Assembly: GCF_030540825.1 (NCBI RefSeq) | Contig: NZ_JAUOEO010000001.1 | Location: 1,399,001 to 1,463,000, forward strand | DNA length: 64,000 nucleotides | Reading direction: 5' to 3' | From: Flavivirga spongiicola | GTDB taxonomy: Bacteria > Bacteroidota > Bacteroidia > Flavobacteriales > Flavobacteriaceae | Shown: one piece after another, positions 23,431 through 47,141 of the stretch | Layout: each line of letters begins with the position of its first letter | Position numbering within the stretch: position 1 is the stretch's first letter | Notes under the pieces: generated by a model | The model's input: the letters and a program-made list of their open reading frames with translations, nothing else | Database searches by the model: none | What the model was told of the DNA's origin: nothing | Program-made: the position numbers and the translations under genes

Positions 23431-23473
23431 CATTTTTTGGTATGATTTATTTTATAAGCTATACCAAAAAATG
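23431..23473. terminator. Perfect 13-base inverted repeat after the oxidoreductase
   Basis: CATTTTTTGGTAT (23431-23443) pairs with ATACCAAAAAATG (23461-23473). The right arm is the very end of the ilvA-tail fragment, so the hairpin spans the junction between this operon and the duplicated ilvA end. Confidence 0.6.
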
Positions 23474-23622
23474 AAACAAATCTGGTTTGTCATTTAGGTA
23501 ATCACCATAAAAATTATGACGTTTCATTTTAATTATAAGAGGCTCCAAATCGGTATTTAATTGAATACCAACTACAGCAGAACCGTTTTCACGATTTGTT
23601 TTTTTACATATTGAAAATAGAA
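23461..23622 (-). pseudogene. 5'-truncated, frameshifted copy of the ilvA 3' end
   Basis: This stretch matches 25286-25452, the end of the intact ilvA, in the same orientation. The codons for the last residues are recognisable (GDYLNDKPDLFHFLV then TAG). Relative to the intact gene it lacks two codons (about 6 bases, after CGGTA at 23551-23555) and one base near 23608, which breaks the frame. Most other differences are at third codon positions, for example all four changes in the GSAVVG codons, so it looks like the tail of a related foreign ilvA allele. The middle about 65 bases are identical. It and intact ilvA bracket the arylsulfatase as direct repeats. Confidence 0.88.
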
Positions 23623-23672
23623 AGAGCTAAATGGCATTATAAAATTAATATCTTTATCATAAATTTAAAAAA

Positions 23673-25265
23673 ATGAAGTCCCTAAAGAGTAGTTTGTGTT
23701 TCCTGTCTATAATTATTACAATTTCTTGTAATACATCTCAAAAATCAGAAAAAAAAATAGCCACAAAGCCTAATATAATTTATATACTAGCAGACGATTT
23801 AGGATATGGTGATTTAGGGGTTTATGGACAAAAAAAAATAGAAACGCCTAATATTGATGGATTGGCAAAAGAAGGTCTCTTATTTACACAACATTATTCT
23901 GGTGCTCCTGTTTGTGCCCCGGCCAGGTCTGTTTTACTAACAGGGAAACATTTAGGTCATTCTTATGTTAGAGGAAATGATGAATGGGGTGCTCGTGGAG
24001 AAAAAGGCGATGTTTGGAATTATAAAAAAATGATAAAAGACTCAACACTAGAAGGTCAAAGGCCATTTCCAAAAAATACAACTACTATTCCAAGTCTTTT
24101 AAAACGAGTAGGCTACAAAACGGGTATGTTTGGTAAATGGGGACTTGGAGCGCCCCATACCGAATCCATACCTACAAAAATGGGATTTGATTACTTTTTT
24201 GGATATAATTGCCAACGACAAGCCCATACATACAACCCTGTGCATTTATATGAAAATGATAAAAGGTATCATCTAACCGCAAACGATACTATTGCGCCAA
24301 ATACGAGGCTTTATAATAATGAGGACCCTTACGACTTAAAAAGTTATGAGAAATACAACCAACCTATTTACGCTCCTGAGATTTCGTTTGAAAAAATGAT
24401 TAGTTTTGTAGATAGCACCGACAATGCTCCCTTCTTTTTATACTGGGCAAGCCCTATACCGCATGCACCATTACAAGCTCCTAAAAATTGGGTAGATTAT
24501 TACGTGAAAAAATTTGGTGACGAAAAACCTTATATAGGAAATAAGGGGTATTTCCCAAACAGATATCCTCGTGCAACTTATGCGGCTATGATATCTTATC
24601 TTGATGAAAATGTAGGCAAGCTAATCAAACATTTAAAAGAAACTGGTAAGTATGAAAATACCATCATTATCTTTACTTCAGATAATGGTCCAACATACAA
24701 TGGAGGTACGGATTCCCCATGGTTTGATAGCGCAGGTCCTTTTGCCAGTGAATATGGCAGAGGGAAAGGTTTTTTATATGAAGGTGGGATACGAGTTCCT
24801 ATGATTGCTTCATGGCCGGGAAAAATAAAAGCTGGATCAACTACAGATCATGTCTCAGCTTTTTGGGATGTTATGCCTACATTATGTGATATAGTAAACA
24901 CAACAACTCCTAAAGAGATTGATGGTATAAGCTTTTTAAATACCTTAATTAATGAAGATAAACAAAAGGAACATGATTTTTTATATTGGGAGTTCCCAGA
25001 ATATAATGGACAAGTTGCTGTAAGAATGGGTAAATGGAAAATACTTTGGAAGGATATAAAGAAAGGGAATAAAGATGTAGAGCTCTATAATTTAGAGAAT
25101 GATTTAATTGAAATGAACAATATTGCTGATAAACACCCCGAAATCATCAAAAGGTTCTATGAAATAATAAAGACAGAACATAGTACTCCAGAAATAGAAA
25201 AGTTTAGAATTGATGCCCTGGAAGATATTTATAAATCCATGAATATTGAGCTTAAAAATAACTAA
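23673..25265 (+). CDS. Sulfatase (arylsulfatase family S1, lipoprotein or exported)
   Basis: This 530-residue protein has an N-terminal signal with a possible lipidated Cys19 (TISCN). The formylglycine motif is CAPARSVLLTG with Cys81, the site oxidised by a sulfatase-maturing enzyme; no such enzyme is encoded here. Metal ligands appear in ILADDLGYGDLG (Asp41, Asp42) and in TSDNGPTYNGG near 330. It removes sulfate esters, probably from marine sulfated polysaccharide. It lies between a truncated ilvA tail and intact ilvA, converges on ilvA with an 18-base gap, and may have arrived by recombination. Its specific S1 subfamily cannot be set by eye. Confidence 0.93.
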   Translation: MKSLKSSLCFLSIIITISCNTSQKSEKKIATKPNIIYILADDLGYGDLGVYGQKKIETPNIDGLAKEGLLFTQHYSGAPVCAPARSVLLTGKHLGHSYVRGNDEWGARGEKGDVWNYKKMIKDSTLEGQRPFPKNTTTIPSLLKRVGYKTGMFGKWGLGAPHTESIPTKMGFDYFFGYNCQRQAHTYNPVHLYENDKRYHLTANDTIAPNTRLYNNEDPYDLKSYEKYNQPIYAPEISFEKMISFVDSTDNAPFFLYWASPIPHAPLQAPKNWVDYYVKKFGDEKPYIGNKGYFPNRYPRATYAAMISYLDENVGKLIKHLKETGKYENTIIIFTSDNGPTYNGGTDSPWFDSAGPFASEYGRGKGFLYEGGIRVPMIASWPGKIKAGSTTDHVSAFWDVMPTLCDIVNTTTPKEIDGISFLNTLINEDKQKEHDFLYWEFPEYNGQVAVRMGKWKILWKDIKKGNKDVELYNLENDLIEMNNIADKHPEIIKRFYEIIKTEHSTPEIEKFRIDALEDIYKSMNIELKNN

Positions 25266-25283
25266 TAGGCTAAATAAAATAAG

Positions 25284-26549
25284 TCATACCAAAAACTGAA
25301 ACAAATCCGGTTTATCATTTAGGTAATCACCATAAAAATTATGACGTTTCATTTTAATTATAAGAGGCTCCAAATCGGTAGCAGATTTTAATTGAATGCC
25401 GACTACAGCGGAGCCATTTTCACGGTTTGTTTTTTTAGCATATTGAAAATAGGTGATATCATCATTTTCACCCAAAATATCAACAACAAACTCTTTTAGC
25501 GCACCTGCACGTTGTGGAAACTTAACAATAAAATAATGCTTTAAGTTGGCATACAACAATGCACGCTCTTTAATTTCTGATGTTCTGGTAATATCATTAT
25601 TACTGCCACTAACCACACATACCACATTTTTACCTTTTATGTCTTCAGCATAAAAATCTAAAGCAGAAATGCTTAATGCACCGGCAGGTTCTACTACAAT
25701 AGCATCTCTATTATAAAGCTCTAAAATAGTTTCACACACTTTCCCTTCCGGAACCGTTATCATGTCATGCAAGTTCTCTTTACAAATTGGAAATGTTAAA
25801 TCTCCTACGCGCTTTACTGCAGCACCATCGATAAACTTTTCAATATGCTCTAATTCTGTATTTTTATTATTTTTGATAGACATAGACATAGAAGGTGCTC
25901 CTTCTGGTTCTACGCCAATGATTTTAGTATTCGGTGAAATTTGTTTAAAAACTGTAGACAAACCAGCTGCTAATCCACCACCACCTACTGCTATAAAAAC
26001 ATAATCGATAGGGGTTTTAGATTGTTCTAGAATTTCTAAACCAATAGTGGCCTGTCCTTCTATAACTTTTTCATCATTAAAAGGATGAATAAATGTTTTA
26101 TGCAACTGCTCGCATTCTAACATAGCAGCATGATAGGCATCATCAAACGTATCACCAATAAGTTTAATATCAATGAAATCACCACCAAACATTTTAACCT
26201 GTTCTACCTTTTGATTTGGTGTAGGAGCCGGCATATAAATAGTCCCTTCAATCTCTAATAATTTACAAGACAATGCGACACCTTGAGCATGATTTCCTGC
26301 ACTTGCACAAACAACCCCTTTTTTAGATTCTTCAGAGGTTAATGAACTTATTTTATTATAAGCACCTCTAATTTTATAAGATCGAACTTGTTGTAAGTCT
26401 TCGCGCTTTAAAAGAATATTAGCATCGTAATATTTTGAATACCTTAAACTAGGGCTTAAAGGCGTAACTGCCGATACTTTTTTAATAGTATCGGCAGCCA
26501 CCTTAATATTATCAATACTAGGAAAATATGTAACGTTTTCCTTATTCAT
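25284..26549 (-). CDS. ilvA: Threonine ammonia-lyase (threonine dehydratase) IlvA
   Basis: IlvA converts threonine to 2-oxobutanoate, the first step to isoleucine. The 421-residue protein has a fold-type II PLP domain with Lys59 in RSYKIRGAYNKI, the phosphate loop VGGGGLAAGL and the SGSNND segment. A C-terminal ACT-like regulatory domain follows (about 335-421; FPQRAGALKEFVVDILGENDDITYF), as in allosteric biosynthetic enzymes. It is the last gene of the ilvDBNCA operon, 92 bases after ilvC. Its final 167 bases are duplicated at 23461-23622. The intact copy keeps full coding potential. Confidence 0.96.
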   Translation of the reverse strand: MNKENVTYFPSIDNIKVAADTIKKVSAVTPLSPSLRYSKYYDANILLKREDLQQVRSYKIRGAYNKISSLTSEESKKGVVCASAGNHAQGVALSCKLLEIEGTIYMPAPTPNQKVEQVKMFGGDFIDIKLIGDTFDDAYHAAMLECEQLHKTFIHPFNDEKVIEGQATIGLEILEQSKTPIDYVFIAVGGGGLAAGLSTVFKQISPNTKIIGVEPEGAPSMSMSIKNNKNTELEHIEKFIDGAAVKRVGDLTFPICKENLHDMITVPEGKVCETILELYNRDAIVVEPAGALSISALDFYAEDIKGKNVVCVVSGSNNDITRTSEIKERALLYANLKHYFIVKFPQRAGALKEFVVDILGENDDITYFQYAKKTNRENGSAVVGIQLKSATDLEPLIIKMKRHNFYGDYLNDKPDLFQFLV

Positions 26550-46898: not shown

Positions 46899-46986
46899 GA
46901 GAGCAGGATTAAAGATCCTAGTTCCCCGCTCGTGAAAATGAAAAGTAACACTGCTATCGCATTGCACTTTTTTTATTTTAAAATAT
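46899..46986. repeat. 88-base repeat, copy B
   Basis: This is the ungapped partner of 43515-43602, in the same orientation, again starting with the 12-base tRNA-Tyr 3' core GAGAGCAGGATT. It lies 75 bases from the intact tRNA gene. Two copies suggest repeated integration or internal duplication of element ends. Confidence 0.75.
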
Positions 46987-47023
46987 ATCCTAAAGCAAGC
47001 TTTGGATATATTTTAAAATAAAA
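46971..47023. repeat. Long perfect hairpin near tRNA-Tyr
   Basis: The 20-base arms 46971-46990 and 47004-47023 are perfectly complementary, and the 13-base centre adds AAAGC/GCTTT, giving a stem of about 25 pairs. It adjoins the tRNA terminator hairpin. Confidence 0.8.
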
Positions 47024-47050
47024 AAAGTTTGCATTTCCATGCAAACTTTT
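47023..47050 (-). terminator. tRNA-Tyr terminator
   Basis: AAAAGTTTGCAT and ATGCAAACTTTT form a perfect 12-base stem with a 4-base loop, followed on the minus strand by a T-run. It begins 10 bases after the tRNA 3' end. Confidence 0.85.
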
Positions 47051-47059
47051 CGAGTTAAG

Positions 47060-47141
47060 TGGGGAGAGCAGGATTCGAACCTGCGAAGACGTAGTCAGCA
47101 GATTTACAGTCTGCCCTCGTTGGCCGCTTGAGTATCTCCCC
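47060..47141 (-). tRNA. tRNA-Tyr (anticodon GUA)
   Basis: The minus strand gives an 82-base class II tRNA. The acceptor GGGGAGA pairs with TCTCCCC, the anticodon stem CAGAC/ATCTG-type region encloses CTGTAAA with anticodon GTA, a variable arm follows, and the T arm is GCAGG-TTCGAAT-CCTGC. The discriminator is A and the CCA end is not encoded. Its last bases (GAATCCTGCTCTCCCC) are repeated at 43510-43526 and in part at 46899-46910, which marks this gene as an integration site. Confidence 0.95.

Follow-up and report, generated by a model that had tools for sequence, protein, structure and literature searches.

What kind of event leaves a second, 5'-truncated copy of the 3' end of a conserved gene close to the intact gene, with accessory genes between the two? 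This question is raised by a stretch of 64,000 nucleotides (C1:1399001-1463000; hereafter referred to as the window) of the genome of Flavivirga spongiicola (Flavobacteriaceae), which comprises 5.9 Mb in 4 contigs, in which the conserved ilvA-C-N-B-D-metK block has a truncated tail copy of ilvA outside one end and a truncated tail copy of metK outside the other. Our preferred answer, held with little more than even confidence, is that these tail copies are scars of interspecies chromosomal exchange at hotspots bounded by core genes, in which one end of the exchanged DNA was joined imprecisely. Direct and inverted repeats were identified by BLAST of the window against itself, protein names are those of Pfam families, and the tRNA was located with ARAGORN. 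The comparison set consisted of 11 same-genus genomes (G001-G011; 12 with the genome studied here), in which the surroundings of ilvA and metK were compared over 20-60 kb per genome.

The intact ilvA gene (threonine dehydratase; 25284..26549, minus strand) encodes the Pfam domains PALP and Thr_dehydrat_C and has an ortholog in 11/11 same-genus genomes. Its copy, found by self-BLAST, comprises ~162 nt of the 3' end (23459..23620, minus strand). The pair aligns in direct orientation and without the 5' part of the gene (23454-23620 with 25279-25452; 174 columns, 89.7% identity, E 6e-56), and the copy carries a 1-nt and a 6-nt deletion. The intact metK gene (32942..34195, plus strand; Pfam) is likewise accompanied by a direct copy lacking the 5' part, ~143 nt long and also found by self-BLAST (39752..39896, plus strand; aligned with 34052-34197 at 85.6% identity, E 5e-37). 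Over 146-174 columns, the ilvA and metK copies are thus 86-90% identical to their respective intact tails, with short exact stretches, none of which was singled out as a core. The initial annotation, made from the sequence of the window, had described three genes with truncated direct tail copies and had proposed self-alignment as a check. The direct repeats of ilvA and metK proved strong, whereas those of the third gene, tRNA-Tyr, were weaker (38 bp at 92% and 88 bp at 83%) and, as described below, different in kind. Its statement that the cargo encodes no recombinase was borne out by Pfam, which found none among the eight cargo proteins scanned.

The differences between tail and copy are not evenly distributed over the codon. 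Ten of the 11 substitutions between the ilvA copy and the intact gene fall at codon position 3 (binomial p 1.3e-4), as do 11 of 19 for metK when the junction edge is left out (p 0.024; 13/24 with the edge), giving 21/30 for the two genes pooled (p 4e-5). Because the differences lie mainly at third codon positions, each pair has diverged mainly while coding, as working genes in two separate lineages. Codon-position bias therefore upheld a separate ancestry for the two tails of each protein gene over the decay of a local duplicate, and a duplicate created during assembly is disfavoured because the copies have diverged from the intact tails. The subsequent histories of the two copies seem to differ. 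The ilvA copy has one state absent from all 12 genes, at position 3, and is closest to its own intact gene (93%; trees of such short tails give no clear grouping). The metK copy has eight private states, all at positions 1/2 and three of them at the junction edge; because of these changes at positions 1/2, it looks older, or longer without constraint. A single age for the tails is not supported, as there are five private position-1/2 changes in the body of the metK copy against none in the ilvA copy.

Both tails sit where gene content turns over among relatives. The ilvA-metK block is present in the same order in 11/11 same-genus genomes, and the gene content outside both of its ends (between aldDH and ilvA, and between metK and tRNA-Tyr) varies among these 11 relatives. 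Within the compared stretches, aldDH was located in 10/11 relatives (it was not found in that of G001) and tRNA-Tyr in 7/11 (it was not found in those of G001, G004, G007 and G009). The aldDH-ilvA interval is near empty in G008 (~0.2 kb) and G006 (0.3 kb), contains three genes (~470, 448 and 393 aa) in G010, G011, G002, G003 and G005, holds a similar set followed by nine further open reading frames (ORFs) in G009, and contains other genes in G004 and G007. The distance from metK to tRNA-Tyr is ~1.3 kb in G008, 1.8 kb in G006, 3.2-3.4 kb in G010 and G003, 5 kb in G011, 8 kb in G002 and ~23 kb in G005. The search for sites that are almost empty and carry one tail, which had been named as a further check, thus has a positive outcome in other species, at both loci in G008 and at ilvA in G006. 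Among the 30 of 79 listed cargo ORFs of the relatives that were scanned, we found a sulfatase, two fucosidases, other glycosidases, regulators and secreted proteins, together with one transposase, beside ilvA in G001.

In 12/12 genomes, the contig carrying ilvA-metK gave no match to PF00589 (Phage_integrase) up to ~80 kb from these genes, serine recombinases not being included in the search, and the tail regions had no match in plasmid or phage collections at E 1e-5. No second ilvA or metK tail was found in the 20-60 kb compared per relative. In a wider search of 299 family genomes with metK, 291 had the gene, and a second metK match was listed in five of them (the genome studied here, G027, G195, G202 and G287), only the first of which was examined. 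A check of 22 of 80 named metK loci yielded no second metK tail beyond one 22-bp inverted match.

We propose that the accessory genes on the aldDH side of ilvA and on the tRNA-Tyr side of metK would have been exchanged among related species via recombination in flanking conserved genes. The exchange would have been homologous on one side only. Its other end would have been joined illegitimately within the core gene that borders the interval, and the last ~140-160 bp of the gene from one lineage would have come to lie beside the complete gene from the other. Homology-facilitated illegitimate recombination with linear DNA would suffice for this, and neither a recombinase nor a circle would be needed. 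We observe the geometry, the turnover, the lack of a tyrosine integrase nearby and the divergence under coding constraint, and from these we infer how the DNA was taken up, that one end was joined imprecisely, and in which direction.

As to this direction, 3' flanks were compared by local alignment, with the score set against the maximum for 200 shuffles. The 3' flank of the intact metK gene matches that of G008 (score 42, shuffle maximum 25), and the flank of the copy does so less. For this reason, the intact metK gene may, weakly, be read as resident, and the copy with what adjoins it beyond as incoming. This is the reverse of the model in the initial annotation, in which the genes between the intact gene and the copy were the incoming cargo; it is the intact side that carries the G008-like flank. 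In comparison with G006, the flank of the copy obtained a score of 33, which reached the shuffle maximum in one direction and stayed below it in the other. For ilvA, the comparison of the intact 3' flank with G008 gave a score of 25, which corresponds to the 95% level of shuffles and is not significant, and neither the intact flank nor that of the copy was informative on residence.

The relationships of the block to the other genomes are not uniform. G008 is the closest of the compared relatives by cupredoxin, aldDH, an outer membrane protein gene and its neighbour, metK, ilvN and ilvD, but not by ilvA, ilvB and ilvC; two outer genes were not comparable with G008. As judged from identities, the operon thus has no single nearest relative, which differs between its genes and also along ilvA. 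The identity of ilvA to G008 is 83-93% per 100 bp and goes down to 79-84% in the last 300 bp, most other relatives remaining steady. Because closeness to G008 falls in this part of the gene, the ilvA end may have been exchanged in our lineage or in that of G008. Over these last ~300 bp, the distance of the G008 gene from the other species is about the same as over the rest of the gene, or slightly greater. We considered that intact ilvA might be chimeric and abandoned this idea, as the G008 drop leaves either lineage as the exchanged one. Within the same operon, ilvD (30616-32304) is 91.5% identical to G008 and 85.7% to G004, and only 69-72% identical to the other nine relatives at the DNA level, an apparent allele replacement.

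The gene that separates intact ilvA from its copy encodes a sulfatase (23673..25265, plus strand; Pfam Sulfatase). Its best match in the 11 other genomes of the genus is only 54% identical, a paralog in its own genome is 78% identical (C1:3789391), and matches in two other genera of the family sample are 73-74% identical. The paralog was tried as a source of donor flank and gave a single aligned stretch restricted to the coding part, hence no donor flank; the C-terminal extension of the sulfatase was discarded as a junction marker, the C-termini being too variable among 10 homologs. Beyond the ilvA copy lie a 3-keto-disaccharide hydrolase gene and a GFO/IDH/MocA gene (21160..23410, plus strand; Pfam), in an interval that holds other genes or none in the relatives. 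Between the stop codon of the latter gene and the ilvA copy, local alignment and BLAST revealed a 45-nt echo, in inverted orientation, of the terminal ~35 nt of ilvA and the first part of its 3' flank (23411..23455, plus strand), with 39/47 alignment columns identical to the ilvA end and an inverted BLAST match of 23428-23455 to 25301-25274 (E 0.001). The echo forms a palindrome with the direct copy, and could have been produced by template switching.

Between intact metK and its copy lie a SusD and a SusC gene (34342..39336, minus strand; Pfam). Relatives of SusD were found in 3/199 family genomes, our own included, at E<=1e-60 (a sample with one other genus member, G011). A 45-bp sequence is present as a tandem pair just 5' of susC (39398-39486), possibly a regulator site, and a SAM-II riboswitch precedes metK (32779-32895; Rfam RF01726, 46.7 bits). 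The truncated end of the metK copy is adjoined by a dispersed palindromic repeat (39720..39751, plus strand), which genome repeat counts place at 11 sites in its own genome, nine in G006, five in G008 and none in the other nine (<=2 mismatches). Behind the copy, reading of the sequence revealed a terminator-like inverted repeat with an inserted dispersed palindrome (39918..40056, plus strand), relatives of which occur elsewhere in the genome and a similar element at the metK 3' flank of G003. It is followed by a gene for a 1015-aa Sortilin/BNR-LamG protein (40065..43112, minus strand; Pfam), which possibly arrived together with the metK copy. Elsewhere in the window, self-BLAST detected internal repeats at 18015-18221, with 76-82% identity.

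The repeats at the tRNA-Tyr gene (gta; 47059..47141, minus strand; ARAGORN and Rfam) are of another nature. A 38-bp copy of its 3' end (~17 nt) and flank (43489..43526, minus strand) matches 47039-47075 with 92% identity (E 5e-7), and ~17 bp of this match belong to the tRNA, the remainder being flank and terminator. Fused to this copy is the far copy of an 88-bp unit of the 3' flank (43515..43602, minus strand), 83% identical to the near copy (46899..46986, minus strand); these repeats too were found by self-BLAST. The near unit is 91% identical to two tandem copies in G008, which has no cargo there, and the unit is also present in the tRNA-Tyr 3' flanks of G002 and G011 and, in a weaker form, G003; it was not seen in those of G010, G005 and G006. 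The tRNA-Tyr repeat and the flank unit have a AATCCTGCTCTC core in common, and a shared core of 12-17 bp is present at tRNA-Tyr. Because the flank repeat occurs without cargo in G008, the tRNA-Tyr case differs in kind from ilvA and metK, and the idea of one mechanism at three targets is not supported. We treat these repeats as a separate matter, most simply a duplication of the tRNA 3' flank, and the flank unit may descend from old integrations at the tRNA. The three-gene operon described next to tRNA-Tyr holds only if a 58-aa ORF (45149-45325) is counted.

Does the genome contain further copies of this type? Ten blocks of the genome were sampled, covering 864 kb with the window (~15% of the genome) and 646 ORFs of at least 100 aa; in two of these blocks, 3279 and 5000 bases are masked as N. 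Outside ORFs, this sample contained no further 3'-end copy of at least 100 bp. Shorter ones (a 49-bp copy derived from one ORF and present at three places, and copies of 81 bp and 56 bp) fall at two repeat-rich places, at C1 ~2.1 and 3.1 Mb. In the relatives (347 ORFs), we found two short 3'-end copies (33 and 43 bp) and one 5'-end copy of 206 columns, all in G001. Truncated gene ends near their gene are thus not confined to 3' ends. As long 5'-end copies occur and no further long 3'-end copy was found, there is no sign of a 3'-end-specific process, and the recurring mechanism aimed at 3' ends that had been suggested for this region was not borne out. Several of these places have features of their own. 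At C1 ~3,774,100-3,776,600, a 205-column direct copy (78.5%) of an ORF 5' end lies 0.56 kb upstream of that ORF, outside called ORFs, a 5'-end counterpart of the ilvA and metK tails. At C1:3,121,931-3,124,079, a 56-bp direct copy of the 3' end of a small ORF lies 1.75 kb downstream, with the same geometry on a short scale. An array of small ORFs, mostly on the minus strand, extends over C1 ~2,130,000-2,153,000, interspersed with two repeated units, the longer of which includes an ORF 3' end (queries of 129 bp and 169 bp matched eight and seven places, respectively, some partially); it could be a cassette or immunity-gene array.

Several other explanations must be weighed against exchange with a one-sided join. 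In a Campbell-type insertion, a single crossover in the 3' end of the gene would have integrated a circle that bore cargo together with a foreign gene tail. This would yield the same geometry and two tails differing at species-level divergence, and it could accommodate the possible exchange of the ilvA end in our lineage or that of G008. However, it predicts that the foreign tail and 3' flank should be on the intact gene, whereas the intact metK flank, at this one locus, is that of the closest relative, and the tail regions resemble nothing in the plasmid and phage collections. We consider it unlikely. Rather less is to be expected of a site-specific recombinase targeting gene 3' ends, with the tails as att sites and the enzyme lost or acting in trans. 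The 3' ends of tRNA genes are classical recombinase targets, and the AATCCTGCTCTC core shared by the tRNA-Tyr repeat and flank unit would fit, but the protein-gene tails are 140-160 bp long and 86-90% identical to the intact ends, the own-genome sample contains no other long 3'-end copy, the flank unit is present in tandem without cargo in G008, and the PF00589 search, limited to tyrosine integrases, was negative in the 12 genomes over ~80 kb around ilvA-metK on the contig concerned.

Both copies flank one conserved 9-kb block on its outer sides, in our genome alone among the 12 in the compared stretches, which would be expected if a foreign ilvA-ilvD-metK block with cargo on both sides had arrived in a single event, with both ends joined illegitimately and the resident tails left outside. 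This we judge about as improbable as the recombinase, given that the nearest relative shifts inside the block (ilvN, ilvD and metK being nearest to G008, and ilvA, ilvB and ilvC not), that private changes at constrained positions number five in the metK copy and none in the ilvA copy, and that intact metK has the 3' flank of the closest relative. Local (tandem) duplication of a gene end with its neighbours, after which the copy would have undergone deletion and decay, accords with copies that are direct and close by and with the ilvA copy being most similar to its own intact gene. The concentration of differences at third positions is not expected of a decaying non-coding copy, and on this account we disfavour local duplication as very improbable. 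Least probable of all, we believe, is a dedicated process that installs carbohydrate-use genes at conserved gene ends and duplicates the gene tail in the reaction, perhaps via dispersed palindromic repeats such as that at the metK copy.

A number of observations weigh against exchange with a one-sided join itself. The join is not seen directly, and the comparison includes neither a donor nor an empty site from the same species. Two joins both less than 160 bp from a stop codon require coincidence or a further cause, and the long 5'-end copies elsewhere (120 and 205 columns, among 16 matches of gene 5' ends in the own-genome sample, and 206 columns in G001) indicate that 3' ends are not special. 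The inverted ilvA echo suggests template switching, an event not called for by a simple one-sided join. Trees built from the 143-162-bp tails give no clear grouping, and the ilvA donor would have to be a very close relative, because the copy is nearest to its own intact gene (93%). States shared with the 11 relatives do not tell which tail is resident, and were accordingly set aside as uninformative on direction. The flank comparisons are also less clear-cut than the G008 match of intact metK alone suggests: the flank of the metK copy itself exceeds the shuffles in comparison with G008 (27, maximum 24) and with the intact metK flank (31, maximum 29), the intact flank does so in comparison with G007 (30, maximum 25), and the best match of the copy flank, to G003 (44, maximum 29), falls within the dispersed palindrome. 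Finally, the absence of integrases rests on draft assemblies in several species, with metK ~8 kb from a contig end in G007.

Homology-facilitated illegitimate recombination was reportedly described around 2002 in natural transformation work on Acinetobacter baylyi and Streptococcus pneumoniae. The process envisaged here is similar, in that foreign DNA is added beside a resident gene through a homologous anchor at one end and an illegitimate join at the other, but that process is known from laboratory transformants, whereas ours would be read from old genomic scars. Integrase-bearing genomic islands sit in tRNA genes or gene 3' ends and duplicate the 3' end at their far end. The ilvA and metK loci resemble them in the duplication of a gene 3' end at the far end of foreign DNA, and differ in having no tyrosine integrase nearby and long, diverged tails. 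One account of horizontal gene transfer hotspots attributes turnover at those without mobile elements to recombination in the core genes on either side (Oliveira et al. 2017, PMC5635113). The ilvA and metK intervals show two traits of such hotspots, differing accessory genes and no tyrosine integrase nearby. The likeness to the hotspots outlined in that account extends to variable accessory genes between the same conserved genes, with no integrase seen, and to turnover rather than a single insertion (PMC5635113). The model as presented there involves double homologous recombination (PMC5635113), which would leave no truncated copy, whereas the tail copies here would be scars of an imprecise end; its hotspots are moreover defined within species, and the present comparison is between species.

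If the proposed exchange is correct, truncated tails of core genes would be readable scars of interspecies exchange at hotspots without mobile elements, recording both the origin of the DNA in another lineage and the imprecise joining of one end. Counting such scars across genomes could then measure the frequency of one-sided exchange, which is invisible after double-homologous exchange.

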